From Amycolatopsis sp. 195334CR (lineage in GTDB: Bacteria; Actinomycetota; Actinomycetes; Mycobacteriales; Pseudonocardiaceae), in assembly GCF_017309385.1 (NCBI RefSeq), contig NZ_JAFJMJ010000003.1, forward strand, positions 372,001-436,000: a stretch of 64,000 nucleotides of DNA. The letters run 5' to 3'. The first letter of the stretch is position 1. Each line of letters opens with the position of its first letter. The translations under genes were made by a program, and so were the position numbers. Shown piece after piece: positions 2,189 through 16,702 of this stretch. The notes below the pieces were generated by a model that was given only the letters and a program-made list of their open reading frames with translations, was not told the origin of the DNA and made no database searches.

Positions 2189-2839
2189 TCAGCGCAGTGC
2201 CGAGCCGGCGGTCGGGTGCAGCACCAGCGTCCGGGGTTCCGCGGCCAGCGTGTCGCCGAAATCGACCCGTTCCCGCCAGGCCTGTTTCCTGGCCGATTCC
2301 TCGTCGGCGAAGCGGGAGATCCAGGCGAAGACCGACTCCCCCTCGCGCACCGGCAGCCGTGGGAAGTTGTTCTCCACGGCCAGGGTTTCGAGCTGCGCGA
2401 GCGGCGGCTGGTCCAACTGGCGCGACACGGATTCCGCGAAGAAAGAGCCGAAGCCGGGCGAGACCACCGCGCAGATCGTGGCGGTGTAGACCCCGGTCGA
2501 CGCGGTGGCGACCGGCGCGAATCCGGCGTCCGGTCCGGCCGGTCGCAGCAGCAGGACGTTGTCGGAGTCGAGCATGGTCGCGTTCGCGGCCGGGCCGTGC
2601 TCGGCCCAGACCGGGCCGCCATAGAAGGCCGCCAGCGAGGCGGCCCGCGTCGGCAGGTCCGCGAATCCCCGCAGCCAGACGAAGCGGTCCGGATCGTCCG
2701 CGTCGCGGAACTGGCCGAGCACCCGCATCCCGCACGCCTCCTGGCCGGTGACGAACTCGCGGTCGAACAGTTCGACCAGTTCGTCACGGCGACCGGGGCG
2801 CAGCGTGTACTGCCGCAGTTCGAGCACAGGAAGGTTCAT
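2189..2839 (-). CDS. NIPSNAP family protein
   Basis: 216 residues. The N-terminus VLELRQYTLRPGRRDELVELFDREF is the typical NIPSNAP ferredoxin-like strand and helix, and FVWLRGFADLPTRAASLAAFYGGPVW follows the family pattern. A second, weaker repeat occupies residues ~115-216. Molecular function is unknown; bacterial members are small dimeric alpha-beta barrel proteins. It starts 33 nt upstream of the GNAT fusion on the same strand, so the two may be co-transcribed. A strong hairpin separates it from the catabolic operon upstream. Confidence 0.82.
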   Translation of the reverse strand: MNLPVLELRQYTLRPGRRDELVELFDREFVTGQEACGMRVLGQFRDADDPDRFVWLRGFADLPTRAASLAAFYGGPVWAEHGPAANATMLDSDNVLLLRPAGPDAGFAPVATASTGVYTATICAVVSPGFGSFFAESVSRQLDQPPLAQLETLAVENNFPRLPVREGESVFAWISRFADEESARKQAWRERVDFGDTLAAEPRTLVLHPTAGSALR

Positions 2840-2855
2840 GGCGCGCAGGTTAGAA

Positions 2856-2888
2856 GCGGGTCACTGACACCCGCTGTCAGTGACCCGC
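2856..2888 (-). terminator. Hairpin terminator closing the catabolic operon
   Basis: A perfect 14-bp stem (GCGGGTCACTGACA with TGTCAGTGACCCGC) and a 5-nt loop start 3 nt after the stop of the DapA-like gene. There is no long U-run, as is common in high-GC actinobacteria. It should end the operon before the NIPSNAP gene. Confidence 0.8.
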
Positions 2889-2890
2889 GC

Positions 2891-3847
2891 TCAACCGAGC
2901 GGCGGCAGCAGGTCGGCGAACTCGGCCAGGAACCGGTCGACCATCCGGATCTCCTCCGCGTCCAGCACGTGCCCCGGTTCGCGGCAGTGCGCGCTGGCGA
3001 ACAGCCCCCGGCGCACCGAGATCAGCTTCTCCGCGGCCACGATCAGCTCGGTGTCGAGCATCCAGTAGGAGATGTAGGGCAGCAGCCGCCGGTACAGCTC
3101 CATGCCGCCGGCCTCGTCGCCCTCGCTGAACCGTCGCCACAGTTCGACGTAGACCTCGGTGAACGAGCACCCCGGCTGCGTGCCCACCGCACCCCGGCGG
3201 AACGCGTCCGGCAGCTGGACCCCCGCGTAGCCCTCGACGGCGGGCAGCGGCGGGTCGGCGGCGGCGAGTTCCGCGATCAGCGCGCCCGGTGGGCTCGACT
3301 CGACCTTCACCAGCGCCAGGTTCGGGTGCTCACGAGCGATTTCCGACAGCGTGGCGCCGTCGAGGCTGGTGCCGGTCTCGGTGGGCGCGTACTGCAGCAC
3401 CACCGGCGTCGGCGCGACCGCGGCGAGCACGGCCCGCACGTGCGACACGATCGACCGGCGCGACGGGGCCAGGAAGTGGGGCGGCAGCAGGTTGATCAGG
3501 TCGGCCCCGGCGGCGACCGCGGCGACCGCGCGCCGCACCGCCAGCCGCGTGGCGTGGTCCTGCACGGCGATGATCGCCGACACCTCGGGCCGGGTGGCGG
3601 TCTCCTCCAGCAGGATCCCGGTGAGCAGCTCGCGCTCCCACTCCCCCAGCTTGTGGAACTCCGAGGCGAACCCGGGGAACATCACGCTGCCCACCCCGGT
3701 CCCCAGCACGTACCGCACCACGCGCCGGAACCCCGGCACGTCCAGGTCGCCGTTGTCGGCGAACGGCACCTCCAGCACCGGCGACACCCCGCGCACCGGC
3801 GGCCGCAGCAAGTCGTCCTCCTCGGCCCGCACCTCCGCGATGGTCAT
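2891..3847 (-). CDS. Dihydrodipicolinate synthase/N-acetylneuraminate lyase family protein
   Basis: 318 residues, a TIM-barrel class I aldolase. Y153 (VVLQYAPTETG) and K181 (LALVKVESSP) sit where this family has its proton-relay tyrosine and Schiff-base lysine, so it probably cleaves or forms a pyruvate-type aldol bond or dehydrates a sugar acid. Lysine biosynthesis is unlikely: it is the last gene of a catabolic operon, 6 nt after an amidohydrolase gene, and no other lysine gene is near. It may carry out the final aldol cleavage of the pathway. The exact substrate is unknown. Confidence 0.85.
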   Translation of the reverse strand: MTIAEVRAEEDDLLRPPVRGVSPVLEVPFADNGDLDVPGFRRVVRYVLGTGVGSVMFPGFASEFHKLGEWERELLTGILLEETATRPEVSAIIAVQDHATRLAVRRAVAAVAAGADLINLLPPHFLAPSRRSIVSHVRAVLAAVAPTPVVLQYAPTETGTSLDGATLSEIAREHPNLALVKVESSPPGALIAELAAADPPLPAVEGYAGVQLPDAFRRGAVGTQPGCSFTEVYVELWRRFSEGDEAGGMELYRRLLPYISYWMLDTELIVAAEKLISVRRGLFASAHCREPGHVLDAEEIRMVDRFLAEFADLLPPLG

Positions 3848-3853
3848 CCGCGC

Positions 3854-4615
3854 TCACCCTCTCCCCGTCGACCCGGACCCGCCCAGCAAACCGCTCACCG
3901 TCCCGGAGAGCACGGCGGCGCGCTCCGGTTCCGCGATCGTCCAGTCCCGCACCCGGCGCAGCTCCGCGGCGGGCACGGTGTACGGCGCGTCGGTGCTGAA
4001 CACCACGCGCGAGGTGCCGATCTCCGGGTCCCGTGCGAACTCGCTGAGCACGGTGTCCCACGGCGCGTAGGCCGTGTCGGAGTACAGGTTCGGCGCCTGC
4101 CGCAGGGCGGGTGCCGCGTCGATCCAGAAGTCGGTCGCACCACTTCGACCCATCAGGAAGGCCACGCCGGGATGGCGCAGGGCCAGGAGCGCGAGCGGCA
4201 GCGGTACCGCGCTCGGCGGGGTGCCCGTCCGCACGTAGGCGAACCAGCCGCGGTCCGCGGCGAATTCGAGCAGCGGGTCCACGAGTCCGTCGAGCAGGTC
4301 GAACCCCTGCAACACGGAGTCGACCGCCAGCGCGACCGCGCCCTGCTCCGCCGCACGGGCCAGCTCGTCCAGTGCCGCGCGACCGCGCCACGGGTTCGCC
4401 ACCGCGTACGCGAGCAACCGGCCGCCGGAGGCCTCGGCCGCCGCGGCGGTCAGCTCGTTGCCCTCGCGGTTGTCGACCGCGATGCACCGCTCGCCCGGTG
4501 AGATCAGCGCCTTGTCGATACCGAGCCGGTCCATCGTGGCCAGCAGTTCCTCGGGCGCCAGCTCGACCTCGCGACCGTCGCCGATGCGCACGTGCGCGTC
4601 CACGACCGCGCTCAT
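3854..4615 (-). CDS. Amidohydrolase-fold protein with degenerate N-terminal metal motif
   Basis: 253 residues, TIM-barrel amidohydrolase (PF04909-like). The usual first-strand HxH metal motif is replaced by DAHVRIG, so the second histidine is missing, while the last-strand acid is kept (FSTDAP). The start at 4615 overlaps the stop of the upstream amidohydrolase by 4 nt (ATGA), which implies translational coupling. The lost metal ligand suggests a mononuclear or metal-free enzyme, or a non-catalytic partner of one of the other two amidohydrolases in the operon. Confidence 0.78.
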   Translation of the reverse strand: MSAVVDAHVRIGDGREVELAPEELLATMDRLGIDKALISPGERCIAVDNREGNELTAAAAEASGGRLLAYAVANPWRGRAALDELARAAEQGAVALAVDSVLQGFDLLDGLVDPLLEFAADRGWFAYVRTGTPPSAVPLPLALLALRHPGVAFLMGRSGATDFWIDAAPALRQAPNLYSDTAYAPWDTVLSEFARDPEIGTSRVVFSTDAPYTVPAAELRRVRDWTIAEPERAAVLSGTVSGLLGGSGSTGRG

Positions 4616-5481
4616 CGGTCCAGCCCCAGCGCGCCCAGTGCGTCGGCGTGGATGATCTCCTCGACCTTCTCCAGCGGTACGCGCGGCAACGCCGTTCCGT
4701 CCAGGATGTCGTTCACGCGGCGGATGCCCGCCATCGCCTCGGCTGTGCCCGCGATCGGGAAGTCGCTCCCCAGCAGCAACTTCCCCAGGCAGCCCCACTC
4801 GTGCGCGGCGAGCAGCGACTGGTAGCAGACCCACGGGCGCAGGTAGATCGACGACACGTCGGCGTACACGTGTGGGTGCTTGCGGATGGTCACCACCGTG
4901 TCGGTGCCCCACGGGTGGCCCATGTGCGCCAGCACCATCCGCAGCTCCGGGAACCGCAGCGCGACCTCGTCGAAGGCCAGCGGGTGCGTGTAGCGCAGCG
5001 GGGCGTGCCGCATCGGCGAGGCGCCGGCGTGGAACAGGATGGGCAGCTGCTCCTTCTCGCAGTAGGCGTAGAAGGCCAGCGCCCGCTCGCCCAGCGGGTC
5101 GAAGTCCTGGTAGTTCGGGCCGAGCTTGACCCCGCGCAGGCCCAGCTCGCGGCAGCGTTCGGTCTCGTCGAAGACGTGGTCCCACAGCGGGTTCACCGAG
5201 AGGAAGCCGATCCGCCGGGCGGGGTCGGCGGCGGCGAACTCGGCGGTGGCGTCGTTCGTGCGCTCCGGTGCGTACGGCAGGCCGGTCATCGGCTCGGGGT
5301 CGTCCACGGCGATGTTGAACACGATGGTCACGTCGGCGGCGGCCATCTCGCGGTCGTAGTCGGCCCAGGAGTTGGTCGTGCTCACGTCGCGGTCGGTGCG
5401 CCAGTTCGAGTACACGCGGCGCTCGTCCGGCGGCACGGGCTCGCGGTGCGTCGGCGTGTGCGAGTGCACGTCGACGATCAC
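4612..5481 (-). CDS. Amidohydrolase 2 family protein (ACMSD/lactonase-like)
   Basis: 289 residues. An intact metal site is visible: VDVHSHTP on strand 1, LFHAGASP and AHMGHPWGTD in mid barrel, and GSDFP on strand 8. This arrangement is that of PF04909 amidohydrolases, which include decarboxylases such as ACMSD and sugar-acid or pyrone lactonases. The GTG at 5481 overlaps the stop of the enolase-superfamily gene by 4 nt. A role in opening a lactone or decarboxylating an acid intermediate is plausible; substrate not identifiable. Confidence 0.83.
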   Translation of the reverse strand: MIVDVHSHTPTHREPVPPDERRVYSNWRTDRDVSTTNSWADYDREMAAADVTIVFNIAVDDPEPMTGLPYAPERTNDATAEFAAADPARRIGFLSVNPLWDHVFDETERCRELGLRGVKLGPNYQDFDPLGERALAFYAYCEKEQLPILFHAGASPMRHAPLRYTHPLAFDEVALRFPELRMVLAHMGHPWGTDTVVTIRKHPHVYADVSSIYLRPWVCYQSLLAAHEWGCLGKLLLGSDFPIAGTAEAMAGIRRVNDILDGTALPRVPLEKVEEIIHADALGALGLDR

Positions 5482-6593
5482 CGGAACCGCCGCCGCAGGT
5501 CGTCGCGGGGCACCACGCCGAGGCCGTGGCCGTCGGTGAGCCGCACCCGTTTGCCGTTGCTGTCCAGCGGGTCTTCCAGGATGTCCTCGGCGTAGTAGTG
5601 CGCGCCGATGATGTCCGAGGGCAGGAGCTCGCTGAGCGCGGGCAGCGCGCACGCCACGTGCAGCTGGGCCGCCGCGCCGATGCCGAGTTCGCCGTTGGAG
5701 CCGATCAGCGTGTCCAAGCCGAAGGTCTCCGCGACGCGACCCTGGACCACGGCCTTCGCCGGGCCGCCCGACTTGCCGAGGTAAATGCCGATCACGTCGG
5801 CCGCAGACGCGCGGATCACCCTGGCCAGGTCGTCCGCGCCGAACACGGACTCGTCGGCGACCACCGGCAGGCCCAGCGATCGCACCGCCGCCATGCCCTC
5901 CAGGTCCGACGGTTTCACCGGCTGCTCGACGAACGCGGGCCCGAAGGTGCTCAGCCGCCGGACCGCTTCACGGGCCTCGGCGCGGCTCCAGCCGCCGTTC
6001 GCGTCGACCCCGATGAACGCGCCGAGCCCGGCCAGCTCGCGCACGCGGGCCACCCTGGTCAGGTCGCCGTCGATGCCGAGGCCCACCTTGACCTTGAACG
6101 AGGTGAACCCGGCCGACACGGCCGCGTGGTACGCCTTCTCCAGCACCTCGCCGTCGCCCGAGAGCGACAGCTTGATCGGCACCTCGTCGCGGTACGGCCC
6201 GCCGAGCGCGGTGGCCAGCGGCATGCCGAGGGTGCGGGCGTAGGCGTCCCACAGCGCGGTCGACACCCCCGCCTTGGTGAACGGGTTCGCCGCGAGCACC
6301 CGGTCCATGATCGCTTCGAGCGCGCCGGGCGGGGCCAGCTTGCGGCCGAGCAGTGCGGTGGTCAGCACGTTGCGCACGAAGTGCTCGGCGCTGGCCGCGT
6401 CCTCCCCGCTCCACAACGGCGTCGCGCTGACCTCGCCGTAGCCCTCCACGCCCTCGGTGGTGACCACGCGGATCAGCAGGAAGTCCGAGCGGTCGTGGCT
6501 GCCCTTCGCGCCGTGCACCACCAGCGCGGGATGGGCGGGCAGGCTGACCGGCAGCGTGTGCACCGCCGCGATCCTCGCGGTGAGCACGCTCAT
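5478..6593 (-). CDS. Mandelate racemase/muconate lactonizing enzyme family protein
   Basis: 371 residues, enolase superfamily. The N-terminal capping domain (1-125) is followed by a barrel with the K167-x-K169 motif (FKVKVG), metal ligands D197 (GVDANGGW), E223 (FVEQPV) and D247/E248 (VADES), and K274 in GKSGG. A KxK motif paired with the strand-6 lysine is characteristic of the muconate-lactonizing/dipeptide epimerase subgroup, so the reaction should begin by abstracting a proton alpha to a carboxylate. It is coupled by 4-nt overlaps on both sides. Confidence 0.87.
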   Translation of the reverse strand: MSVLTARIAAVHTLPVSLPAHPALVVHGAKGSHDRSDFLLIRVVTTEGVEGYGEVSATPLWSGEDAASAEHFVRNVLTTALLGRKLAPPGALEAIMDRVLAANPFTKAGVSTALWDAYARTLGMPLATALGGPYRDEVPIKLSLSGDGEVLEKAYHAAVSAGFTSFKVKVGLGIDGDLTRVARVRELAGLGAFIGVDANGGWSRAEAREAVRRLSTFGPAFVEQPVKPSDLEGMAAVRSLGLPVVADESVFGADDLARVIRASAADVIGIYLGKSGGPAKAVVQGRVAETFGLDTLIGSNGELGIGAAAQLHVACALPALSELLPSDIIGAHYYAEDILEDPLDSNGKRVRLTDGHGLGVVPRDDLRRRFR

Positions 6594-7354
6594 CCGAGCC
6601 ACCCGCCGAGCAGCCGCCGGGGATTGGTCACCAGCATCTCCTCCCGCTGCTTCGCGGTGACGCCCCAGCCGTCGATCTCGGCGATCCTGGCCACCGCGTA
6701 GTCCTGGCTCGCCCGGTCGGACAGCCCGGCGTCGGTGCCGAAGAGCACCTTGCCCGCCGGCGCGTGGGCGAGGATGTGACGGGCCGCGTACGGCGGCGTC
6801 CCGCACAGGCAAAGGTAGAGGTTCGGGGTCACGATGGTGGCGGCGAGCGCCTCGCGCCAGCAATCGTGCAGGCCACCGTGCCCGAGCACCACCGGGATGC
6901 CGGGGTGGCGGCGGGCCAGCGCGGCGATCTGGCCGGGCATCGAGTACGGCGGGGAGCCGTCGTGCGAGAGCAGGATGCCGCCCGCCGACTCGACCTCCTC
7001 GCAGATCTCGTCGAGCGCGGTTTCGTGCATGCTGAAGCCCTGCAGCCAGGGGTGCAGCTTCAGGCCGCCGAAGCCCAGTTCGGTGAAGCAGCGGCGCACC
7101 TCGTCGGCGGCGCCGGCGTGACGCGGGTTGACCGTGCCGAACGCGATCATCCGCTCCGGGTCGGCCGCGGTGAACCGGGCCAGCTCGTCGTTCGCCTCCG
7201 GGGTGGCGTTGAACAGGCCGTCGTGGGCGAGCACGACGGCGGCCTCGATGCCGGAGCCGTTGAGGAAGTCGAGGAACTCGCCGGGGCCGAATTCGGCGCC
7301 GCCGAGCCAGGTCGCCGCGTGCCAGGCGGGCGGATGGGTGTGGAAGTCGATCAC
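6590..7354 (-). CDS. Amidohydrolase family protein
   Basis: 254 residues, the third amidohydrolase of the operon. It opens VIDFHTHPP (HxH metal motif) and keeps FGGLKLHPWLQGF, LLSHDGSPPYSMPG, VVLGHGGLHDCW and LFGTDAG, so the metal site looks complete. The GTG at 7354 overlaps the stop of the creatininase-family gene (GTGA). It differs clearly from the other two amidohydrolases, which suggests three separate roles, not a recent tandem duplication. Confidence 0.83.
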   Translation of the reverse strand: MIDFHTHPPAWHAATWLGGAEFGPGEFLDFLNGSGIEAAVVLAHDGLFNATPEANDELARFTAADPERMIAFGTVNPRHAGAADEVRRCFTELGFGGLKLHPWLQGFSMHETALDEICEEVESAGGILLSHDGSPPYSMPGQIAALARRHPGIPVVLGHGGLHDCWREALAATIVTPNLYLCLCGTPPYAARHILAHAPAGKVLFGTDAGLSDRASQDYAVARIAEIDGWGVTAKQREEMLVTNPRRLLGGWLG

Positions 7355-8082
7355 GGCAGTTCCGCCAGCGCGATCAGCCGGTCGGCCAGCGCGGCCACGA
7401 TCTCGTCCAGCCACTTGGCCCCGTTGTCGGCGTTGGCCAGTTCCGGGCGGTCGGTGTAGCCGTCGATGCGCAGCCAGTCGCCCTGGTTGTGCACGTCGAC
7501 GCCGGGCAGCGAGGGTGTCTCGGGCAGTGCGGTGCGTTCGACCGGGCGCCGCGCCAGGTCCGGGTCGACGGCCAGCACGAGCGAGGTCTCGAACTCGCCG
7601 GCGTGCCCCGGAACCGGGAGCGCGGACCGGCCGGCCACCAGGTTCCAGTAGTGCACGGTCGACACCGACAGCCCGTAGCGCGCGGACGCGGCGGCGGCCG
7701 CGGCGTGGCAGACACCCTGGTTGCCGCCGTGCCCGTTGACCACGACCAGGCGGCGCCCGCCGCAGGTGGCCACCGAGCGGGCGAGATCGGTCAGCACCGC
7801 GACGGCGACCTCGGTGCTCAGCGACAGCGTGCCGCCGAAGGGCAGGTGGTGGTCGGAAGCGCCGAACGGCAGGCAGGGGGCGAGCACCAGGTCGCGCGGG
7901 GACGACCGGTCCGCCTCCTCGACCGCGCGCCGGGCGATGGTGGCGGCCATCAGCGCGTCGGTGCCGGTGGCCAGGTGCGGGCCGTGCTGCTCGGTCGCGC
8001 CGAACGGCAGCACCACGAGTGCTTCGGGCAGCACCGCGCCGAGTTCGGCGCGGGTGCGGTCGTCCCAGTTGAACACGGTCAT
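7351..8082 (-). CDS. Creatininase family hydrolase
   Basis: 243 residues. Conserved metal-binding features of the creatininase fold are present: GATEQHGPHLATGTD (Glu, His, Asp), GHGGNQG, and HAGEFETS with a metal-binding Glu. Members hydrolyse cyclic or linear amides (creatinine amidohydrolase, MftE peptidase, FAPy deformylase). In this operon it is the obvious candidate for cleaving an amide bond in the imported compound. There is no mycofactocin cluster nearby, so an MftE role is unlikely. The ATG at 8082 overlaps the preceding stop by 4 nt. Confidence 0.86.
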   Translation of the reverse strand: MTVFNWDDRTRAELGAVLPEALVVLPFGATEQHGPHLATGTDALMAATIARRAVEEADRSSPRDLVLAPCLPFGASDHHLPFGGTLSLSTEVAVAVLTDLARSVATCGGRRLVVVNGHGGNQGVCHAAAAAASARYGLSVSTVHYWNLVAGRSALPVPGHAGEFETSLVLAVDPDLARRPVERTALPETPSLPGVDVHNQGDWLRIDGYTDRPELANADNGAKWLDEIVAALADRLIALAELP

Positions 8083-9083
8083 GCCAGGCTCCAAGCCGCG
8101 AGCACGGCGACCCGCTCGCTGATCTCCAGTGCGGCCAGCCCGTCGGCCAGGCCGGGGGACGGGACGGCCCGCGCGCCGGTGACCAGCTCGGTGAACCGGT
8201 CCAGCTGCAGGTCGAAGCACCGGGTGGTGCGGTCGTCGTCGAAGGCCACGCGTTCCACCCCGGCGGCGGTGGTCAGCCGCAGGTCGAAGGTGAAGCCGTC
8301 GAGTTCGGCGTGCCCGCGGTCGCCGATGAAGCTGATCTCGCAGCGCGGCTGCGCGTCGGTCAGCCAGCCGAACTCGGCGAGCACGGTGACGCCGCCGGGA
8401 TAGGTCAGGCGCGCCCCGCAGAGGTTCGCGGCGGGCAGGTCCGGGCGGGTGGACACCGCCCAGGAGTCCTCCAGGCGCTCGGGCGGACCGCCGAAGAGCG
8501 TGGCGAACCAGTCGAACACGTGCGCTCCCTCGTGGACCACGGGCATTCCGTGGGCCAGTGTGGCCTCGATCCGCCGCGCGTGCTCGGGCAAGGCCGGATC
8601 ACGCCGTTCGTCGTAGATGTGCGCCCGGACCAGGATGCCGTCGCCGAGCCGGCCGCCGTCGATCCATTCGCGCAGCACCGCCAGTGCGGGGTCGTGCCGG
8701 TAGGTCAACCCCACCTGGACGCGTTTGCGCTGGCCGGCCGGCAGTTTCGCGAGTGGCGCGGCGGCCGACGACGACACCGCGATCGGCTTCTCGGCGAGCA
8801 CGAACCGTCCGGTCGCGGCCACGCGACCGACCAGGCCGGGGGTGACCCAGGGCGGTGTCGCCAGCACGACCGCGTCGATCACCGGGTCGGCCAGCACGTC
8901 GGCGAGGGTTTCGAAGGCCGGTGCCGCGGTGTGCTCGGCGGCCAGCGCCCGGCGGGCGGGGTCCGGGTCGACCACGGCCGCCAGCCGGAGGCCCGGGTGG
9001 CGCAGCAACGCGGGCAGGTGGGCGCCGAGGCCGATCTCGCCGAGTCCAACCAGTGCGACCGACGGAACGTTCCGCGTGTTCAT
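8079..9083 (-). CDS. Gfo/Idh/MocA family NAD(P)-dependent oxidoreductase
   Basis: 334 residues. The Rossmann domain starts VALVGLGEIGLGAHLPALL and includes the family motif AEKPIA near residue 100; the C-terminal half holds a conserved H in VVHEGAHVFDW, as in sugar and inositol dehydrogenases of this group. It probably oxidises a hydroxyl of a sugar or cyclitol-like substrate. The start ATG at 9083 overlaps the ABC ATPase stop, so uptake and oxidation genes are directly coupled. Confidence 0.86.
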   Translation of the reverse strand: MNTRNVPSVALVGLGEIGLGAHLPALLRHPGLRLAAVVDPDPARRALAAEHTAAPAFETLADVLADPVIDAVVLATPPWVTPGLVGRVAATGRFVLAEKPIAVSSSAAAPLAKLPAGQRKRVQVGLTYRHDPALAVLREWIDGGRLGDGILVRAHIYDERRDPALPEHARRIEATLAHGMPVVHEGAHVFDWFATLFGGPPERLEDSWAVSTRPDLPAANLCGARLTYPGGVTVLAEFGWLTDAQPRCEISFIGDRGHAELDGFTFDLRLTTAAGVERVAFDDDRTTRCFDLQLDRFTELVTGARAVPSPGLADGLAALEISERVAVLAAWSLA

Positions 9084-10660
9084 CGGGACACCTCCCCGGT
9101 GGCGAGCTCGGGGACCGCGTCGATCAGCGCGCGCGTGTACTCGTGCTTCGGGTCGCCGAACAGCTCCGCCCTGCTGCCCGTCTCGACGATGCGCCCGTGC
9201 CGCATCACCGCGAGCCTCGGCGCGACCTGCCGCACCACGGCGAGGTCGTGCGAGACGAACAGGTAGGTCAGGCCGAGTTCGCGTTGCAGGTCGCGGAGCA
9301 GGCTCAGGATCTGTGCCCGGATCACCACGTCGACCGCGGAGACCGCCTCGTCGAGCACCACGAACGACGGTTCCAGCGCGATCGCGCGGGCGATGTTGAC
9401 CCGCTGGCACTGCCCGCCCGAGAGCTCACGCGGGTAGCGCCCGGCGAACGCGGCGGGCAGGCCGACGAGGTCGAGCAGCTCGGCCACCCGGCGATCGCAG
9501 TCCGCCTTCGACGCGCGCCGGTGCACCGCGAGCGGCAGCCCGACGATCTGCGCGACTGTCTTGCGGCGGTTCAGCGAACCGACCGGGTCCTGCGGCACGA
9601 GTTGCATGTCGCGGCGGCGCCGCCGCAGCTCGCCGCGCGAAAGCGAACCGAGCGCGACGCCCTCGTGCCGCACCTCGCCCGACGCCGGCCGGTCGAGCCC
9701 GAGCAACAGCCTCGTCAGTGTGGACTTGCCCGCGCCCGACTCCCCCACCAGCCCGAAGGTCTCCCCCCGGTGCACGGTCAGCGACACGTCGTCGACCGCG
9801 GGGGCGCCGGAACCGAAGCGCTGGACCAGGCGATCGGCCTCGACCAGGGGCGGTTCCGGCTTCGGTTCAGCCAGTTCGACCGGCGTCCGCAGAGTGACCA
9901 CCGACCGCAGGAGGTCGCGGGTGTACTGGTGCGCCGGTTCAGCCAGCACGACCGGCAGCGCGCCCGACTCGACCACCCGGCCCTCGCGCATGACCTGGAT
10001 GCGCGCGCAGAACTCCGAGGCGACCGCGAGGTCGTGCGTGATGAACAGGACGGCCATGCCGCGGCGCGTGGCCAGGTCGTCGAGCAGGGTCAGAATCCGG
10101 GCCTGGGTGGTGACGTCGAGCGCGGTGGTCGGCTCGTCGGCGATGAGCACCTCGGGTTCGCACGAGATCGCCATCGCGATCATCACCCGCTGCCGCATGC
10201 CGCCGGAGAATTCGTGCGGGTACTGGCGCACGCGCCGGGCGCCGTCGTCGATGCCGACCTCGCCGAGCAGGTCGATGGCGGCCACCCGCGCCTGGGCGGC
10301 GGTGACGTCGCGGTGCGCGCGGATCGCCTCGGCGATCTGGTCGCCGATCGTGCGCACCGGGTTCAAGCAGGACAACGGATCCTGGTAGATCATCGCGATG
10401 CCCCGGCCGCGGACCCGGTCCAGTTCGGGGTCGGTCGCGGTGACCAGGTCGCGCCCGTTGAACACGACCCGGCCGCCGGTGATCTCGGTCGGCGGCGGGT
10501 TCAACCGCAGCATCGACAGCGACGCGATCGTCTTCCCGCTCCCGGACTCGCCGACCAGCGCGAGCCGCTCCCCGGCGGCCAGTTCCAAGCTGAGGCCGTG
10601 CACCAGTGGCGGACCGTCCGGCAGGCCGATCGCCAGGTCCTCGACGGTGAGCACGCTCAT
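9080..10660 (-). CDS. Dipeptide/oligopeptide-type ABC transporter, fused ATPase (DppD-DppF)
   Basis: 526 residues with two complete ABC domains in one chain. Domain 1: Walker A GESGSGKT at 37-44, signature FSGGMRQRV at 151, Walker B VLIADEP. Domain 2: Walker A GESGAGKST at 307, signature LSGGQCQRV at ~413, Walker B VVLDEA. This equals the DppD plus DppF pair of peptide/nickel importers. It powers the two permeases encoded immediately upstream and overlaps the second permease gene by 4 nt. Confidence 0.92.
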   Translation of the reverse strand: MSVLTVEDLAIGLPDGPPLVHGLSLELAAGERLALVGESGSGKTIASLSMLRLNPPPTEITGGRVVFNGRDLVTATDPELDRVRGRGIAMIYQDPLSCLNPVRTIGDQIAEAIRAHRDVTAAQARVAAIDLLGEVGIDDGARRVRQYPHEFSGGMRQRVMIAMAISCEPEVLIADEPTTALDVTTQARILTLLDDLATRRGMAVLFITHDLAVASEFCARIQVMREGRVVESGALPVVLAEPAHQYTRDLLRSVVTLRTPVELAEPKPEPPLVEADRLVQRFGSGAPAVDDVSLTVHRGETFGLVGESGAGKSTLTRLLLGLDRPASGEVRHEGVALGSLSRGELRRRRRDMQLVPQDPVGSLNRRKTVAQIVGLPLAVHRRASKADCDRRVAELLDLVGLPAAFAGRYPRELSGGQCQRVNIARAIALEPSFVVLDEAVSAVDVVIRAQILSLLRDLQRELGLTYLFVSHDLAVVRQVAPRLAVMRHGRIVETGSRAELFGDPKHEYTRALIDAVPELATGEVSR

Positions 10661-11499
10661 CGCTCACCCCCGCCCGCCCGCAGCACCCGCTGCAACTGGT
10701 CGCCGAGCGCGTTGAGCGCGCCGATCGCCACGATGAGCACCAGCGCGGGCAGCAGCGGGTACCAGATCGACTCGAACAGCTTGTCGTACCCGGACTTCAG
10801 CAGCGTGCCCCACGACGCGTCCGGCGGCTGCACGCCGAGGCCGACGAAGCTCAGGGTGGCCTCCAGCATCAGCGCCGTGGCGAGGTTCAGCGACGCCTGC
10901 GCGAGCAGCGCGGGCCCCGCGTTCGGCAGCACCTCGGCGAACAGGGTGCGCGACCGCGGCACGCCGACCGCGTCGAGGCCGCGCACGTACTCCGACTCGA
11001 GTTCGGCGAGCACGGCCGAGCGCGCGATCCGCGCGGTCAGCGGGCTCATCAGCAACCCGGTCACGATGATCATGGACGGCGTCGCCGAGCCGAAGGCGGC
11101 GACGAAGACCAGCGCGAACAACACGATCGGGATGGCCAGCGCGGCCTCGGCCACGCGCATCAGGATCTCGTCCAACCAGTTCGACCCGGCCGCCGCGAGC
11201 AGGCCCCACGCCACCCCGATCACCATCGCCACCAGCGTCGCCCCGGCGGCGAAACCCAGCGACAGCTGTCCGGCGTGCGCGACTCGCGACAGCAGATCGC
11301 GCCCGAGTTCGTCGGTGCCGAACAGGTGCGGCCAGCCCGGCGCGGCGAAGCGGTTGCGCGCGTTGATCGCCGCCGGGTCCGGCAGCACCCACGGGGCGAG
11401 CAGCGACAGCAGCACGAACGCACCGAGTACAGCCAGCGCGACAACCGCGGCGGGCCGCGCGAGCAGGCGGCGCACCGGGGGCTTCGCGGGCGCGGTCAC
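10657..11499 (-). CDS. ABC transporter permease (DppC type)
   Basis: 280 residues, about six membrane helices. The N-terminal helix and HLFGTDELGRDLLSRVAHAGQLSL loop are the DppC/OppC signature, and the EAA-like loop is ARIARSAVLAELESEYVRG with VLPN. It forms the inner-membrane channel together with the DppB-type permease. The GTG at 11499 overlaps the DppB stop (GTGA). Confidence 0.92.
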   Translation of the reverse strand: MTAPAKPPVRRLLARPAAVVALAVLGAFVLLSLLAPWVLPDPAAINARNRFAAPGWPHLFGTDELGRDLLSRVAHAGQLSLGFAAGATLVAMVIGVAWGLLAAAGSNWLDEILMRVAEAALAIPIVLFALVFVAAFGSATPSMIIVTGLLMSPLTARIARSAVLAELESEYVRGLDAVGVPRSRTLFAEVLPNAGPALLAQASLNLATALMLEATLSFVGLGVQPPDASWGTLLKSGYDKLFESIWYPLLPALVLIVAIGALNALGDQLQRVLRAGGGER

Positions 11500-12458
11500 C
11501 GTCGCACCCGCCCGACGCGCAGGCGCGGATCGAGCACGCCATACAGCAGGTCGACCGCGAGGTTGACCACCACGAAGGCCGCGGCCAGCAGCAGCACCGT
11601 GCCCTGGATGACCGCGTAGTCCCGTTTGAACACCGAGTCCACGATCAGCGAGCCGAGGCCCGGCCAGCCGAACACGTACTCGACCACCACCGCGCCCGAG
11701 AGCACGCCCCCGACGGTCACGCCGAGCGAGGTCAGCGCGGGCAGCATCGCGTTGGGCAGCACGTGCCGCAGCACCACCGCCCGGCGGCCGATGCCCTTGC
11801 CGGTGGCGGTGCGCACGTGCGCCGTGCTCTCCACTTCGGACAGCGCGGCGCGCAGGTGCCGGATCAGCGGGGCGGACAGGCAGATCCCCAGGGTCAGCGC
11901 GGGCAGCACGAGCGTGCGCAGGTTGCCCGCCGGGTCCTCGGTCAGCGGCACGTACCCCTGCTGCGGCAGTACTCCCAGTTTGACGCTGAAGATCGCCAGC
12001 AGCACGATGCCGAACACGAACGGCGGCGCCGCCATGCCCGCCACGGTGTACGCGCCGACCAGCCTGCCGGGCCAGCGGCTGCGCACCACGGTCGGCAGCA
12101 CCGCGAGCACGACGGCCAGTAGCACGGCCAGCACCAGCCCCGCCGCCGACAGCTCCAGCGTCGGCCCCAGCCGCTGGCCGATGAGCACCGTGACGTCGAA
12201 CTGGCTGAAGTACGACCGGCCCAGCTCGCCGCCGAAGATGCCGGTGATCCACACCCAGTACTGGACCGGGATCGGGTCGTTCAGGCCGAGTTCCTCGCGC
12301 AGCGCGGCGAGCGCGGCCGGGTCGATGTTCTGCGCCGCGCCGACGCGCGCCACCGTCGGATCACCCGGGAGCAGCCGCAGCACCACGAAGATCAGCACCG
12401 AGACCCCGAGCAGCATCAGCGCGCTGACCGCGAGCCGCCGCAGCAGATAACCGGCCAT
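11496..12458 (-). CDS. ABC transporter permease (DppB type)
   Basis: 320 residues. MAGYLLRRLAVSALMLLGVSV is the typical first helix of DppB/OppB, followed by LLPGDPTV, the EAA loop with RTATGKGIGRRAVV and VLPNAM, and VEYVFGWPGLGSL near the end. It pairs with the downstream DppC-type permease. It begins 14 nt after the stop of the solute-binding protein gene. Confidence 0.92.
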   Translation of the reverse strand: MAGYLLRRLAVSALMLLGVSVLIFVVLRLLPGDPTVARVGAAQNIDPAALAALREELGLNDPIPVQYWVWITGIFGGELGRSYFSQFDVTVLIGQRLGPTLELSAAGLVLAVLLAVVLAVLPTVVRSRWPGRLVGAYTVAGMAAPPFVFGIVLLAIFSVKLGVLPQQGYVPLTEDPAGNLRTLVLPALTLGICLSAPLIRHLRAALSEVESTAHVRTATGKGIGRRAVVLRHVLPNAMLPALTSLGVTVGGVLSGAVVVEYVFGWPGLGSLIVDSVFKRDYAVIQGTVLLLAAAFVVVNLAVDLLYGVLDPRLRVGRVRR

Positions 12459-12472
12459 GCCCGGCCCCCGTT

Positions 12473-14047
12473 CTAGGCCGCGAACCCGGCTTCCTCCAGG
12501 TGCAGCGTCCCCTCGGCCTGCACCCACAGCCCGCGGAGCTCGGGCTGCGCCACCGACAGGAAGGCCGTCGAGCCGATGAAGATCACCGGGTTCTCGCGGT
12601 TCAGCACGCGCTGCGCGGTTTTGAACGCCGCGTCGCGCTCGGGGCCCTCGCCCGCCGACTCGATGGTGGCGATGGCGTCGTTGTACTCGGCGGGCGCCGC
12701 CCAGTTGCACTCGCAGGTGCCCTTGGTGCCCTCGAACCAGGCCAGCGGGTAGCTGTCCGGCGGCGGGGTGAACGACAGGTAGTTGGCGGCGAGCAGGTTC
12801 GGGTAGCTCTTGCCCTTCGGGTAGAACTTCGCCGACCAGGTGCTCACCTCGTTGGTCTGGATTTCCAGGGTGATGCCGATCTTCGCCAGGTCCTGCTGCA
12901 GGATCTGGCCGATCGTGGTCCATTCCTGGTAGTTGCCCGCGACCGCCCAGAAGGTCAGCGTCGCGCCCTCGGTGATGCCGGCCTCGGCGAACAGGCGCTT
13001 GGCACGTTCGAGGTCGAACCCGTGCGACGGCACCGTCGGGTCGTAGAACCGGTTCTTCGGGTTCACCGGGGCGTTCCTCGGTGTCGGCACGCCGTATCCG
13101 GCGTACGCGGCGGCCATCATCTCGGTGCGGTTCGCCGCGTACGACAGGGCTTCGCGCGCCTTGGGGTTGTTGAACGGCGCCGCGCTGGTGTCGAGTTCCC
13201 AGACCACGAACCCGGCGGGCTCGGCGGCGGTGAGCAGTTGCCTGCCGTCGGTGGCCAGCCCGGCCGCGCTGTCCGGGGCGACGCTCCACAGCACGTGGAC
13301 CTGGCCCGCCCGCAGCGCCGCGTTCGCCGCGGTCGCGTCGGCGTACCGCACGATCCGGATCGCGTCGAGGTTCGGGCGCGGGCCCCAGTAGCCGTCGTGT
13401 CGCACCAGTTCGACCGTCTGGTCCGGGACGAACGACTTGAGCTTGTACGGCCCGGTGCCGTTGGCCGAGCGGTCGATGTTGGCCAGGTCGTCCACGTCGG
13501 TCATCCGCACGTCGATCACGTCGACCGGCAGCTCCGGGTTCGGCGAGTCGAGCGTGAGCACGAGCGTGGTGTCGTCCACCGCGGTCACCGCGTCGATCAT
13601 GTCGATCTTCGCGGCGACCTGGGCAGGAACCGCGGGGTCGAGCACGCGGTCGAAGTTCTTCTTGGCCTCGGCGGCGGTGAACGCCTTGCCGTTGTGGTAC
13701 TTCACGCCCGGGCGCAGTTTGAAGGTCCACGTCCGGTAGTCCGGGGTGAACTGCCACGACTCGGCCAGGTCGGGTTTCGCGGTGTTTTCCGGGGTCCAGG
13801 TGGTCAGCCCGCTCCACAGCAGCGTCTGGAGCTGGGTCTGCGCGCCGCTGGCGATGGTGTTCGGGTCGAGCTGGGAGACCCCGGCGATCTGGCCGTAGAC
13901 CAGCGTGCCGCCCGGCGCGATCGGGCCCTTGCCGCTGTCGGCGGTGGGCTGCGGCTGGTCGGGCGCGCCTTCGCCCGCGTTGGAACAGGCCGAAGTCAGC
14001 AGGAGCAGCGCCAGCGCGGCGGCCCCCCAATTCTGCGCACGCCCCAC
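12473..14047 (-). CDS. Extracellular solute-binding lipoprotein, family 5
   Basis: 524 residues. The GTG at 14047 has a GGAGG five bases upstream and gives a short lipoprotein signal peptide with lipobox LTSAC (Cys21). The mature part follows SBP_bac_5: LDPNTIASGAQTQLQ, ESWQFTPDYRTWTFKLRPGVKYHNGKAFTAAE, NGTGPYKLKSF. It should capture the substrate outside the membrane for the DppB/C/DF importer. Family 5 proteins bind peptides but also opines, sugars, plant glycosides and metal chelates, so the family alone does not reveal the ligand. Confidence 0.92.
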   Translation of the reverse strand: MGRAQNWGAAALALLLLTSACSNAGEGAPDQPQPTADSGKGPIAPGGTLVYGQIAGVSQLDPNTIASGAQTQLQTLLWSGLTTWTPENTAKPDLAESWQFTPDYRTWTFKLRPGVKYHNGKAFTAAEAKKNFDRVLDPAVPAQVAAKIDMIDAVTAVDDTTLVLTLDSPNPELPVDVIDVRMTDVDDLANIDRSANGTGPYKLKSFVPDQTVELVRHDGYWGPRPNLDAIRIVRYADATAANAALRAGQVHVLWSVAPDSAAGLATDGRQLLTAAEPAGFVVWELDTSAAPFNNPKAREALSYAANRTEMMAAAYAGYGVPTPRNAPVNPKNRFYDPTVPSHGFDLERAKRLFAEAGITEGATLTFWAVAGNYQEWTTIGQILQQDLAKIGITLEIQTNEVSTWSAKFYPKGKSYPNLLAANYLSFTPPPDSYPLAWFEGTKGTCECNWAAPAEYNDAIATIESAGEGPERDAAFKTAQRVLNRENPVIFIGSTAFLSVAQPELRGLWVQAEGTLHLEEAGFAA

Positions 14048-14110
14048 GCCCGCCTCCAGTGTCCCTCGCCCCTGCCCACCGTTGGTCCCGCGAGGAAACC
14101 TCTGAAATTC

Positions 14111-14144
14111 GCTATTTCGAAGATAGCTTCCCCGATTCGAAGAT
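14111..14144. promoter_or_regulatory. Candidate IclR operator in front of the transport operon
   Basis: GCTATTTCGAAGATAGC (14111-14127) is an inverted repeat with 5-bp arms around a TTCGAA core, and TTCGAAGAT recurs at 14136-14144. The sites lie 64-97 nt upstream of the solute-binding gene in the only gap between it and the IclR gene. Short TTCGAA-like palindromes are typical of IclR targets, but the assignment is inference. Confidence 0.5.
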
Positions 14145-14181
14145 GCTAAGTCTCCGGTCATCCCCGGCGCAAGGACCTGAC

Positions 14182-14970
14182 CTAGAACCCGAGTTTCGCG
14201 GAAACCTCTTTCGCTTGCCGCACAACGAGTTCGATCGCGACGTCGAGTTTGGCGCCGATCAGGTCCCTGGCGAATCCGGTCACGCCGAGCGAACCGGCGA
14301 TTCGGCCATCCGAGTGGAACACCGGGGCGGCGATGCACGCGATGTCCGGTTCCTCCTCCTCGTCCTCCACCGCGAACCCGGCCTGGCGCACCGTGGCCAG
14401 TTGCGCCAGGAAGACCCGGGCGGACGGTTTCTTCGCCTTCGGGCCGCGCCCGGCGACCAGGTGTGACAGCAACGGGTCAAGCTGCTCGTCTGGCAGGTAG
14501 GCGGCGATGGCGCGGCCGAGCGCGGTGAGGTTGAACGGCGCGACCTTGCCGGGATAGGTGTCGAACTGGATGAACCCCGGGGTCGCGGCCTTGGCCACGT
14601 AGACCACCGACGCACCGTCGAGCACGCCGACGTGCGCGGGCATGCCCAGCTCGTCGGCCAGGTCGCGCAGTTCGGGCTGGGCGACCTCGGCCAGGTCGTC
14701 CTGCTTGATCAACGGGGCGGCGAGGTCGTAGAGGCGGAGCGTGACCCGCCAGAAGTGGCTGCGCCCGACCACCCGGCGCGCGGCGTACCCGCGCTGTTCG
14801 AGGGTGTAGACGATGGCCGCGCAGGTGGCCAGCGGGATGCCGGTCGCCCTGGCGAGCGCGGTGAGGGTGAGGCCGTCTTCGGCGGCGACCAGTGTCTCCA
14901 GCACGGTCAGCGTGCGGCTGACCGCGGGCGAGGCGGGCCGCGGTTCGGGTGACTTCTCCTCCGCCGCCAC
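14182..14970 (-). CDS. IclR family transcriptional regulator
   Basis: 262 residues. An N-terminal winged helix (residues ~17-75: AVSRTLTVLETLVAAEDGLTL, ALARATGIPLATCAAIVYTLEQRGYA) is followed by an IclR effector domain with AALGRAI-like NLTALGRAIAAYLP and IAAPVFHSDGRIAGSLGVTG. It lies 134 nt upstream of the transport/catabolic operon on the same strand and is its probable local regulator. A TATTAT element on the minus strand at 15015-15020 could be its own -10 region. Confidence 0.9.
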   Translation of the reverse strand: MAAEEKSPEPRPASPAVSRTLTVLETLVAAEDGLTLTALARATGIPLATCAAIVYTLEQRGYAARRVVGRSHFWRVTLRLYDLAAPLIKQDDLAEVAQPELRDLADELGMPAHVGVLDGASVVYVAKAATPGFIQFDTYPGKVAPFNLTALGRAIAAYLPDEQLDPLLSHLVAGRGPKAKKPSARVFLAQLATVRQAGFAVEDEEEEPDIACIAAPVFHSDGRIAGSLGVTGFARDLIGAKLDVAIELVVRQAKEVSAKLGF

Positions 14971-15076
14971 GACCTCCCCTTCTTCGGCCTTTCGGGCCTA
15001 TTTTCGGAATACGGATAATACCAGCGCGCGGGGGCCGTGCCTGCCGGCGTTACGCCGGTTGGGGCAGGATGTCGCC

Positions 15077-16702
15077 GTGCCCCGCGATTCGCCCCGCCGC
15101 CGGTTCGACGGTGACGACACCCCGACCGGCCCGATCCGCCGGATCACGAGCGACGACCTGGCCGGCTCAGCCACCTCTGACGGCCCGGCGCGCCCGACCC
15201 GGCGCGGTTCACTCGGTCGAACCGGTCAGTCCGAGCGGCGCGGTCAGACTGAGCGCACTGTGGCCCGGCGCCCACCGCACGACGCGGGGTCGCGGGGCGA
15301 GACCCGGCAAGCGCGGCGCGAACGCCTCGAAGCCGCCGAGCGGGAGCGAAGCCGAGACCAGGAACGAGGCCGAGGAGCCGACCGAGAACGAGAGGCCGAG
15401 CGGAGCGCCCCGCCGGCACGGCGGCGACGTGTCGAACCAGGTGAACCGGCCGAACGAGACGAGCCAGCGAAGGCACGAGCGGAAGAGCCGGTCGTACCGG
15501 TTGGACACGGACACGGCCATGGGCACGGACCCGCCACCCCCGCCTCCGCGCGGGTCAAGAAGCTGCTGATCATCCTGCTCGCCCCGCTCGCGCTGGCCAC
15601 CGTCGTCGGCGTGGCGCTGCTCTACCCGTGGGGCCAGCCCGACCCGCAACCCGCCATCCTGGTCGGCACGCCGGTGCACGGCGACGTCACCGCCACCGCG
15701 ACCGGGCCCTGCCTGTCCCCCGGTGATGTCCAAGTGGGTGCACCGGTCGAGGGCGCGCAGCAGTGCCTCACCGTGGACGTGGTGCTCAGCGACGGCGTCG
15801 CCGCCGGGCAGACCCTCCGCAAGATCGTGCCGCTCGAACCGAGCACGCCGCGGTTCGCCGCCGGGGACGCGGTGGTGCTGTCGTTCGCCGGGGACGACGC
15901 GCGCAACCCCGACTCGTACCAGCTCGTCGACTTCCAGCGCGGATTGCCGCTGGCCGCGCTGGCGGCGCTGTTCGCGATCGCGGTCGTCGTGCTCGGACGG
16001 TGGAGCGGGCTCGCCGCGCTCGGTGCGCTCGTGCTCAGCTTCGGGGTGCTGGTGCTGTTCGTACTGCCCGCCATCCTGGCCGGGGAGAACCCGCTGATGG
16101 TGGCGATCTGCGGCGCCGGGCTGATCATGTTCATCGCGTTGTACCTGACGCACGGGCTCTCCGCGAGAACCTCGGTCGCCGTGCTCGGCACGCTGGTCAG
16201 CCTCGCGCTGATCGGCGGCATCTCGGCAATGTTCTCCGCCGCGGCTTCACTGACCGGCCTCGACGACGACACGTCCTCCTTGATCGCCGCGCTCGGGCAC
16301 GGCATCGACGCGCGCGGGCTGCTGCTCGCCGGCGTGGTGATCGGCGCGCTCGGTGTGCTCGACGACGTCACGGTCACCCAGACGAGCGCGGTCTGGGAGC
16401 TGCGGCGTGCGAACCCCGGGCTCGGGTGGCGCGAGTTGTACGCGGCGGGCGTGCGGATCGGCCGCGACCACGTGGGGTCGGCGGTCAACACGCTGGTCAT
16501 GGCCTACGCGGGCGCGGCGCTGCCGGTGCTGCTGGTGTCGTCGCTGTCCGGGGTCGGGCTCGGGTCGATCCTCGGGTCGCAGGACATCGCGCAGGAGATC
16601 GTGCGGACGCTCGCGGGCAGCATCGGCATCGTGGCCGCCGTGCCGGTGACCACCGTGCTGGCCGCGTTGATCGCGAGCCGCGAACCCGTCAGTCCAGGCT
16701 AG
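15077..16702 (+). CDS. YibE/F family membrane protein with long disordered N-terminus
   Basis: 541 residues from the GTG at 15077. Residues 1-155 are charged and disordered, rich in Arg, Glu and Pro, and end in a Gly-His repeat (GHGHGHGHG). A membrane helix at 161-182 is followed by an extracytoplasmic domain and about seven further helices, with LDDVTVTQTSAVWELRRANP and SAVNTLVMAYAGAALP, both typical of YibE/F. The family is unknown in function, with transport suggested. The exact start is uncertain because the N-terminus is low complexity. It overlaps the convergent gene by 14 bp. Confidence 0.82.
   Translation: MPRDSPRRRFDGDDTPTGPIRRITSDDLAGSATSDGPARPTRRGSLGRTGQSERRGQTERTVARRPPHDAGSRGETRQARRERLEAAERERSRDQERGRGADREREAERSAPPARRRRVEPGEPAERDEPAKARAEEPVVPVGHGHGHGHGPATPASARVKKLLIILLAPLALATVVGVALLYPWGQPDPQPAILVGTPVHGDVTATATGPCLSPGDVQVGAPVEGAQQCLTVDVVLSDGVAAGQTLRKIVPLEPSTPRFAAGDAVVLSFAGDDARNPDSYQLVDFQRGLPLAALAALFAIAVVVLGRWSGLAALGALVLSFGVLVLFVLPAILAGENPLMVAICGAGLIMFIALYLTHGLSARTSVAVLGTLVSLALIGGISAMFSAAASLTGLDDDTSSLIAALGHGIDARGLLLAGVVIGALGVLDDVTVTQTSAVWELRRANPGLGWRELYAAGVRIGRDHVGSAVNTLVMAYAGAALPVLLVSSLSGVGLGSILGSQDIAQEIVRTLAGSIGIVAAVPVTTVLAALIASREPVSPG

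Follow-up and report, generated by a model that had tools for sequence, protein, structure and literature searches.

A probable sugar-catabolic operon and its 13-bp box in Amycolatopsis sp. 195334CR and other actinobacteria

The 64,000-nucleotide stretch of DNA analysed here (the window; contig NZ_JAFJMJ010000003.1 of the soil actinobacterium Amycolatopsis sp. 195334CR, assembly GCF_017309385.1, positions 372,001 to 436,000 of the forward strand) contains an iclR gene followed by genes for an importer and for seven enzymes. We propose, with a probability of roughly two in three, that these genes form an IclR-controlled operon for the import and the oxidative, non-phosphorylative breakdown of a sugar or sugar acid, which would probably be released from a plant polysaccharide. 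The initial annotation had favoured an amide- and carboxylate-bearing compound, for example, an opine, that is finally split by retro-aldol cleavage. Both parts of that proposal have lost ground, the substrate because carbohydrate-type (CUT1) importers occur in 13 of 25 related loci and sugar genes share the box described below, and the cleavage because the DapA-type protein carries the Gln/Lys/Glu signature of a dehydratase. The case for shifting the substrate class from amides toward sugars is good but not conclusive; the regulon itself is real, conserved and uncharacterised.

Results

Conservation of the gene set

The same gene set recurs in other genera of Actinobacteria, where the initial annotation had suggested that it be sought. 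AH3, one of three proteins of amidohydrolase family PF04909 encoded in the operon (AH1, AH2 and AH3), was chosen as the query for the locus search as the most unusual protein, and a pattern-limited scan of 84,980 species genomes revealed the enzyme block at 25 named actinobacterial loci, some of them cut by contig or flank ends. AH1 and the enolase-superfamily gene are each present at 24 of these loci, AH2 and the creatininase-family gene at 23, the DapA-type gene at 21, the gene for the Gfo/Idh/MocA-type dehydrogenase (Gfo/Idh) at 20 and iclR at 19. At L016 (loci are cited by number where they have to be told apart), the DapA-type gene, which is apparently missing, sits just beyond the first stretch, in L126.

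Within the genus, AH3 was found in 11 of 80 genomes, and all ten other loci keep the operon and the Dpp-type importer, eight of them with the DapA-type gene. Searches of 396 phylum and 200 family genomes, in which only some of the first-look candidates were scored, gave one genome each, both times the source genome itself. The nearest named relatives of the enolase-superfamily and AH3 proteins belong to Amycolatopsis. When pairwise distances are compared among the families of the eight conserved proteins, they correlate (r 0.70-0.90, with no unrelated gene as a control), as expected of a gene set that is inherited together.

The importer differs among the 25 loci: 13 encode a CUT1 system, recognised by Pfam SBP_bac_1 together with a permease, 6 encode a DppB close to that of the window, and at 6 no importer of either type was detected in the stretch with the thresholds applied. 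The Gfo/Idh gene is absent from L003, L007, L015 and L019, and also from the cut locus L006; exactly the first four combine a short-chain dehydrogenase/reductase (SDR), a PfkB-type kinase and an aldolase of the 2-keto-3-deoxy-6-phosphogluconate (KDPG) type. This aldolase passes the eda subfamily cut-off (164 bits, cut-off 156). The kinase of L007 reaches no cut-off, its best NCBIfam matches being IolC (169 bits, cut-off 300) and 2-keto-3-deoxygluconate/galactonate (KDG/KDGal) kinase (163 bits, cut-off 400), so that 'KDG kinase' would be a working name. For each of the ten genus loci, 18 kb were searched with the kinase and aldolase queries, without a match. Further neighbours at the 25 loci are RidA-type genes (9), a family designated u6 (7), aldose epimerases (5) and HisD-like genes (4). 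Beside the operon of Actinocatenispora, a cluster with boxes near both ends (L126, 6300-14813) contains the DapA-type gene together with genes for RidA, 3HCDH-type, SDR and HisD-like dehydrogenases, a DMFA2_C protein and a transporter of the major facilitator superfamily (MFS).

The box and its distribution

Alignment of the gaps between iclR and the solute-binding protein gene from 11 Amycolatopsis sequences revealed a conserved 13-bp block, TATYTTCGAWATA. Two probable operator boxes are located in the window, an exact TATCTTCGAAATA in the iclR-binding protein gap (14113..14125, minus strand), found in this alignment, and a site with one mismatch to TATYTTCGAWATA upstream of iclR (14999..15011, plus strand), found in a scan of the source genome. 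These are the only two sites with at most one mismatch in the 9.9-Mb genome, in which the reversed control has none, and two sites at up to two mismatches in the window compare with 0.04 expected. The genome contains 11 more sites with exactly two mismatches, versus 2 for the reversed control.

The 22 non-Amycolatopsis loci, which were not used to define the box, contain 51 sites at up to two mismatches, and all 51 are intergenic, with an intergenic share of 64.8 of 430 kb by our own gene calls. Dinucleotide shuffling gave a mean of 0.85 sites (20 shuffles, maximum 3) and the reversed pattern gave 3. The box precedes the DapA-type and Gfo/Idh genes at 8 loci each, iclR at 6, u6 at 5, the creatininase-family gene, the CUT1 binding protein gene and a further family, u4, at 3 each, and the aldolase-kinase pair, the aldose epimerase, RidA and a permease at 2 each. 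The pairing of the box with iclR suggests that the IclR protein, whose best NCBIfam matches are BhcR and PcaR/PcaU, below cut-off, would bind it.

In 15 genomes reached via the operon loci, 44 box sites were found, distributed over 14 of them, versus 1 for the reversed control. Twenty box regions were read, and nine contain operon, importer or secreted-type genes, either close to the operon on the same contig (L126, L129, L130, L132 and L141) or distant from it (L122, L123, L136 and L139; L123 is included on weak FG-GAP and laminin-G evidence). In Jiangella, Nonomuraea and Kribbella (L122, L130 and L136), some 25-130 bp separate the box from the called start of a downstream gene of glycoside hydrolase family 43 (GH43). 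The Kribbella gene is followed by u6 and an FG-GAP protein gene and is divergent from an iclR gene; the GH43 part of its product has arabinan endo-arabinosidases as nearest models, far below the cut-off. In Nakamurella (L011), a GH43 gene adjoins the enolase-superfamily gene, with no box within two mismatches there.

The DapA-type protein

The last gene of the operon (2891..3847) encodes a protein of the dihydrodipicolinate synthase (DHDPS) family (Pfam 5.7e-18). Its best sequence match in the PDB is 3fkk, an L-2-keto-3-deoxyarabonate (L-KDA) dehydratase of Azospirillum brasilense, at 77 bits and thus with low overall similarity. Nevertheless, Q152, K181 and E183 align with Gln143, Lys171 and Glu173 of 3fkk and are invariant in all 30 rows of the alignment. 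According to a review, the Tyr of the aldolases has become Gln143 in the A. brasilense enzyme, the conserved Lys cannot be dispensed with, and other members of the family do not conserve Glu173 (PMC9795676). The window protein therefore has the sequence signature of the L-KDA dehydratase branch, that is, the Schiff-base Lys, the exchange of Tyr for Gln and a Glu two residues after the Lys. Because the aldolase Tyr position and its partners carry this set, the protein is predicted to act as a dehydratase, and a retro-aldol role is disfavoured. Its scores lie below the NCBIfam cut-offs for dapA (39 of 206 bits), nanA (30 of 382) and KdgD (43 of 374).

Outside the operon, 13 relatives were analysed, taken from 10 of 44 plasmid records (the other 34 are mostly further Agrobacterium and Sinorhizobium) and from three non-own hits of a further search. 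The motifs Q-x-A-P and K-x-E are kept in all 13, and an ordinary DapA on a Chelatococcus plasmid has neither. In 12 of the 13, the DapA-type gene directly adjoins a gene either of the IlvD/Edd type (L067, L068, L069, L082 and L088) or of the mandelate-racemase type, that is, an enolase-superfamily gene outside the muconate-lactonising group, without the beta-6-type lysine of the window protein (L070, L083-L087 and L089). In L081, neither gene is adjacent, and there is only a partial enolase match at the contig edge. A 2-keto-3-deoxy-sugar kinase query matched in 9 of the 13.

Two of these plasmids have further features. On an E. coli plasmid (L069, 5143-11505), a sugar-acid operon with genes for a KDGal kinase, a 2-keto-3-deoxy-6-phosphogalactonate (KDPGal) aldolase, an MFS transporter, IlvD and a DapA-type protein with the same dehydratase signature lies beside a dgo operon. 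On a plasmid of Halocatena marina (L070, 1372-15354), the DapA-type and enolase-superfamily genes are located near alpha-L-rhamnosidase and sulfatase-like genes and a sugar ATP-binding cassette (ABC) importer.

The enolase-superfamily protein

The muconate-lactonising subgroup of the enolase superfamily is recognised by a KxK motif, followed by D, E, D/E and a further Lys. The window protein (5478..6593; Pfam MR_MLE_C 4.7e-50) fits this pattern with K167/K169, D197, E223, D247/E248 and K274, and all seven residues are present in 34 of 34 rows. It stays below the NCBIfam cut-offs for muconate cycloisomerase (TIGR02534, 168 of 335 bits), L-Ala-D/L-Glu epimerase (114 of 500) and cis-3-hydroxy-L-proline dehydratase (112 of 500). 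In the operon it occupies the slot that an IlvD/Edd or mandelate-racemase-type gene has in the outside relatives, and this gene context leads us to infer activity as either a sugar-acid dehydratase or a lactone cycloisomerase.

The hydrolases

The initial annotation had counted three different amidohydrolases, and three PF04909 proteins are indeed encoded. AH1 (6590..7354; Pfam 4.2e-29) has conserved HxH, K-x-HPW, HDG, LGH and FG-x-DAG stretches, with the metal motifs in all 35 rows; AH2 (4612..5481; Pfam 4.2e-30) has conserved HxH, FH, AH and GSD stretches, with the metal motifs in all 34 rows. AH3 (3854..4615; Pfam 2.1e-15) is a paralogue of AH1 with a degenerate metal site, which weakens a reading of all three as working amidohydrolases. 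The two proteins align over 223 columns (hhalign probability 98.9). The key residues of AH3 are H8, R10, R129, R/K157 and D209: Arg takes the place of the second His of HxH in all 35 rows; at the later His positions, assigned by the AH1 alignment, one is occupied by Arg in 35 of 35 rows and the other by Arg (32) or Lys (3) at R157. Asp209 and the PF04909 fold family are kept, and the metal ligands characteristic of PF04909 hydrolases are lost. In amidohydrolases of the ACMSD group, arginines of the neighbouring subunit help in substrate binding. Because the altered residues are so strictly retained, the alignment suggests that AH3 does not serve as an ordinary metal hydrolase but has another task, such as that of a partner to AH1.

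In Chelatococcus, the gene for a 38% identical relative of AH2 stands beside one of the IlvD/Edd type, and SDR and aldehyde dehydrogenase genes lie no more than about 8 kb away; this context fits a sugar-lactone role. The creatininase-family protein (7351..8082; Pfam 6.8e-55) has conserved EQHG, NGHGGN and HAG stretches (34 rows) and lies below the NCBIfam cut-offs for Creatininase (76 of 235 bits), MftE (116 of 172) and IolN (41.3 of 245). Five of 351 plasmid records with a match to it were read (34-38% identical), and the enzyme could be an amidase.

The usual lactonase and dehydratase genes were also sought at 35 operon loci. An IlvD query had no match, and an SMP-30 lactonase query had one plausible match, in L004 (38% over 222 amino acids), downstream of the operon; the remaining matches land on iclR genes, apparently through an IclR-like part of the query. 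The protein of about 575 residues annotated as SMP-30/gluconolactonase in L086 (5206-6930) seems to contain such an IclR-like part, as judged by these matches.

Gene organization and importer

The description of the locus as a tightly packed minus-strand importer and catabolic operon headed by iclR is borne out by the Pfam families and the gene junctions. The set is consecutive, as previously described, and has twelve rather than eleven genes when iclR is included (14970-2891, all on the minus strand); its last stop ends at 2891, not at 2856, and it contains seven rather than eight enzyme genes. The iclR gene (14182..14970; Pfam IclR_C 1.5e-28, HTH_IclR 8.1e-11) is separated by 134 bp from the gene for the family 5 solute-binding protein (12473..14047; SBP_bac_5 1.3e-80), a lipoprotein with an LTSAC lipobox. 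From the latter gene onward, 8 of 10 junctions are 4-nt overlaps, the other two being gaps of 14 bp (binding protein-dppB) and 6 bp (AH3-dapA), and these overlaps suggest that the genes would be co-transcribed. A simple scan of 2600-3000 found no promoter-like or terminator-like site.

The binding protein gene is followed by genes for a DppB-type permease (11496..12458; 58-97% matches in the loci with a Dpp-type importer), a DppC-type permease (10657..11499; also matched in relatives) and a fused DppD-DppF ATPase (9080..10660), in which two ABC ATPase halves form a single frame that is matched by two separate genes in L013, L016 and L021. The Gfo/Idh/MocA dehydrogenase gene (8079..9083; Pfam 8.3e-17) comes next, and E98-K99-P100 and H178 of its product are kept in 31 of 31 rows. 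The protein families named in the initial annotation were confirmed, by Pfam for nine of the twelve proteins (IclR, SBP_bac_5, GFO_IDH_MocA, Creatininase, three Amidohydro_2, MR_MLE N- and C-terminal domains, and DHDPS) and by their own sequences and matches in relatives for DppB, DppC and DppDF. A plus-strand frame (14813-16702) overlaps iclR in the 5' part of that gene; the long stretch of the frame that encodes a membrane protein probably begins beyond the overlap.

Families without Pfam match

Several protein families linked to the box or the operon in relatives have no Pfam match. u4 (L016, 7513-9030; L020, 2217-3626; upstream of iclR in L040-L043 and L046) is a putative TIM-barrel protein with a conserved IDDF motif and C-terminal domains that is repeatedly operon-linked, and u6 (L009, 1465-3972; L130, 5689-8034; L136, 11559-14012) is a secreted-type protein of about 800 residues that is often boxed, with an FG-GAP or GH43 neighbour. 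Profiles of both had only chance-level matches in the PDB and nothing above the cut-off in a permissive Pfam search. Neither was found in the Amycolatopsis genome by searches that detected both in other genomes. A third family, u14, lies between the enolase-superfamily and AH2 genes in Conexibacter (L021, 7702-9051; L017, 2960-4105 and 16980-18068).

Discussion

If the operon serves the oxidative breakdown of a sugar, the binding protein and the Dpp permeases would import a sugar or a short oligosaccharide, which the Gfo/Idh enzyme (perhaps replaced by the SDR in four relatives) would oxidise, possibly to a lactone. Opening of this lactone or of a related ring might fall to AH1 (in partnership with AH3, which would act without a metal), AH2 and/or the creatininase-family enzyme, and the enolase-superfamily enzyme would turn the resulting acid (or lactone) into a 2-keto-3-deoxy acid. 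The DapA-type enzyme would then form a Schiff base and remove water without C-C cleavage, yielding a 2,5-dioxo acid, which, if the substrate is a pentose, would be on the way to 2-oxoglutarate; in the four relatives, the PfkB kinase and the KDPG-type aldolase may serve as the lower part of the pathway. Of the families of such a pathway, the dehydrogenase and the DHDPS-type protein are present, the hydrolases are represented by family only, and the dehydratase role follows from gene replacement.

The initial annotation had stated that no pathway with this set is described, and we found no paper on it in the open full-text literature searched, outside which most subscription papers lie. Among described pathways, the non-phosphorylative L-arabinose route of A. 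brasilense comes closest; the operon shares with it the Gfo/Idh-family dehydrogenase and the Gln/Lys/Glu signature of the DHDPS-family dehydratase (PMC9795676). The window operon differs in that a muconate-lactonising-type enolase occupies the dehydratase slot, an SMP-30 lactonase is absent, three PF04909 proteins and a creatininase-family protein are present, and the dehydrogenase for alpha-ketoglutarate semialdehyde (KGSA) is absent from the operon. Plasmid clusters of Agrobacterium fabrum C58 (pAt, L084), Ensifer canadensis (L087) and Chelatococcus sp. CO-6 (L085), which consist of DapA, mandelate racemase, CUT1, oxidoreductase and SMP-30 genes, resemble the operon in the overlap of the DapA-type with an enolase-superfamily gene, the sugar ABC importer and the oxidoreductase, and also contain a 2-keto-3-deoxygalactonokinase gene. 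However, their enolase-superfamily protein lacks the lysine at the position of K274, their lactonase is SMP-30, and no amidohydrolase or creatininase is annotated in the stretch. Clusters of IlvD/Edd-like, DapA, PfkB kinase and KDPG-type aldolase genes on Streptomyces and Embleya megaplasmids (L067 and L068) encode DapA-type proteins 63.5% and 61.0% identical to that of the window, after a dehydratase related to annotated ilvD, but this dehydratase belongs to another superfamily and the hydrolases of the window have no match there. The 3,6-anhydro-L-galactonate cycloisomerase SCO3480 of Streptomyces coelicolor is likewise an actinobacterial enolase-superfamily enzyme that forms a 2-keto-3-deoxy acid from a sugar acid (PMC9706016). 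The residues listed there for its pocket include Asp270 and His297, in contrast to Lys274 of the window protein, a comparison by residue pattern and not by alignment (PMC9706016).

It should be noted that several observations weigh against a sugar pathway. All nine window proteins that were scanned stay below the NCBIfam cut-offs; the importer is of the peptide type, with NikA and GsiB as the nearest models of the binding protein, below cut-off; and the automatic names of the relatives of the enolase-superfamily protein include dipeptide epimerase and muconate cycloisomerase. The operon has no SMP-30 lactonase, and none of the 12 window genes encodes an aldehyde dehydrogenase for the 2,5-dioxo product, the rest of the genome not having been searched for one. 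Eleven of the 20 box regions (L124, L125, L127, L128, L131, L133, L134, L135, L137, L138 and L140) have no visible link to the operon, as judged by matches to operon genes with few proteins run against Pfam. RidA-type genes occur at 9 of 25 loci, and four of the five creatininase relatives lie near genes for amino-acid or peptide importers, an amidohydrolase, RidA, a hydantoinase or an M55 peptidase (the neighbourhood of the fifth, L079, has no theme). Among these four, L080 encodes a Dpp-type importer as well and contains kdgD. The best match of the L007 kinase is to IolC, a kinase of the inositol pathway, below cut-off, and the aldolase-kinase pair in four relatives hints at a C6 acid, not a pentose. 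The creatininase contexts and the IolC match led us to grade the sugar pathway slightly lower, and the amide and cyclitol explanations slightly higher.

An amide- or carboxylate-bearing compound such as an opine, which would be imported, oxidised, cut by the amidohydrolases and split by a retro-aldol step, would account for the peptide-type importer, the creatininase-family enzyme and the RidA-type genes, and the creatininase contexts are the strongest remaining support for a nitrogen-bearing substrate. However, this enzyme is the only obvious amide-cleaving candidate in the operon, the metal ligands of AH3 are gone, the DapA-type protein carries the dehydratase signature, and the CUT1 importers and the sharing of the box with sugar genes point elsewhere, so that we regard such a substrate as the least probable of those considered. 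Hardly less improbable is a cyclitol pathway, in which the Gfo/Idh protein would oxidise an inositol-like ring and the creatininase-family enzyme would cleave a cyclic diketone, in the manner of IolG and IolN, to a 2-keto-3-deoxy acid. Inositol 2-dehydrogenase is the top NCBIfam match of the dehydrogenase and the creatininase-family protein matches IolN weakly, in line with the L007 kinase, but the scores are far from the cut-offs (84.5 of 355 bits for IolG, 41.3 of 245 for IolN), the window contains a single dehydrogenase gene, and the boxed sets of relatives include GH43 and aldose epimerase genes.

Within the sugar pathway, an arabinan-type pentose is named as the lead substrate because of the GH43 genes and the L-KDA-type signature, although the odds are against this particular sugar. 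A hexonate or uronate route, which is about as likely, would run mainly through the kinase and the KDPG-type aldolase in its lower part, and the substrate of the DapA-type enzyme would be a C6 or branched 2-keto-3-deoxy acid. It would agree with the order of the DapA-type, PfkB kinase and KDPG-type aldolase genes on the Streptomyces and Embleya megaplasmids, with the annotated 2-dehydro-3-deoxygalactonokinase genes near DapA-type genes in Agrobacterium, Chelatococcus and Ensifer and on the E. coli plasmid, and with the kinase-aldolase pair at four operon loci. Against it stand the ten genus loci, in which this pair was not matched within 18 kb, and the fact that no uronate-specific enzyme was seen.

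Two parts of the operon stand out as the most unusual, AH3 and the muconate-lactonising-type protein that fills the dehydratase slot. Tentatively, and with somewhat less than even odds, they may belong to a new oxidative sugar route, in which a hydrolase set and a muconate-lactonising-type dehydratase replace the usual lactonase and the IlvD/Edd or mandelate-racemase steps. The hydrolase set would consist of the creatininase-family enzyme, AH2 and an AH1/AH3 pair, with AH3 as a pseudo-enzyme that lends arginines, and one IclR box would also control polysaccharide-degrading enzymes and families without Pfam match in related actinobacteria.

What had been an operon of unknown purpose is now a regulon that can be tested: it comprises a single 13-bp box, an importer and seven enzymes, and the sugars to be tried form a short list. 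The gene replacement hints at what an uncharacterised clade within the muconate-lactonising group may do, AH3 is a conserved example of how an amidohydrolase can stay in its family and gene neighbourhood and yet lose its metal ligands, and, among the boxed genes of relatives, u4 and u6 may encode polysaccharide enzymes.

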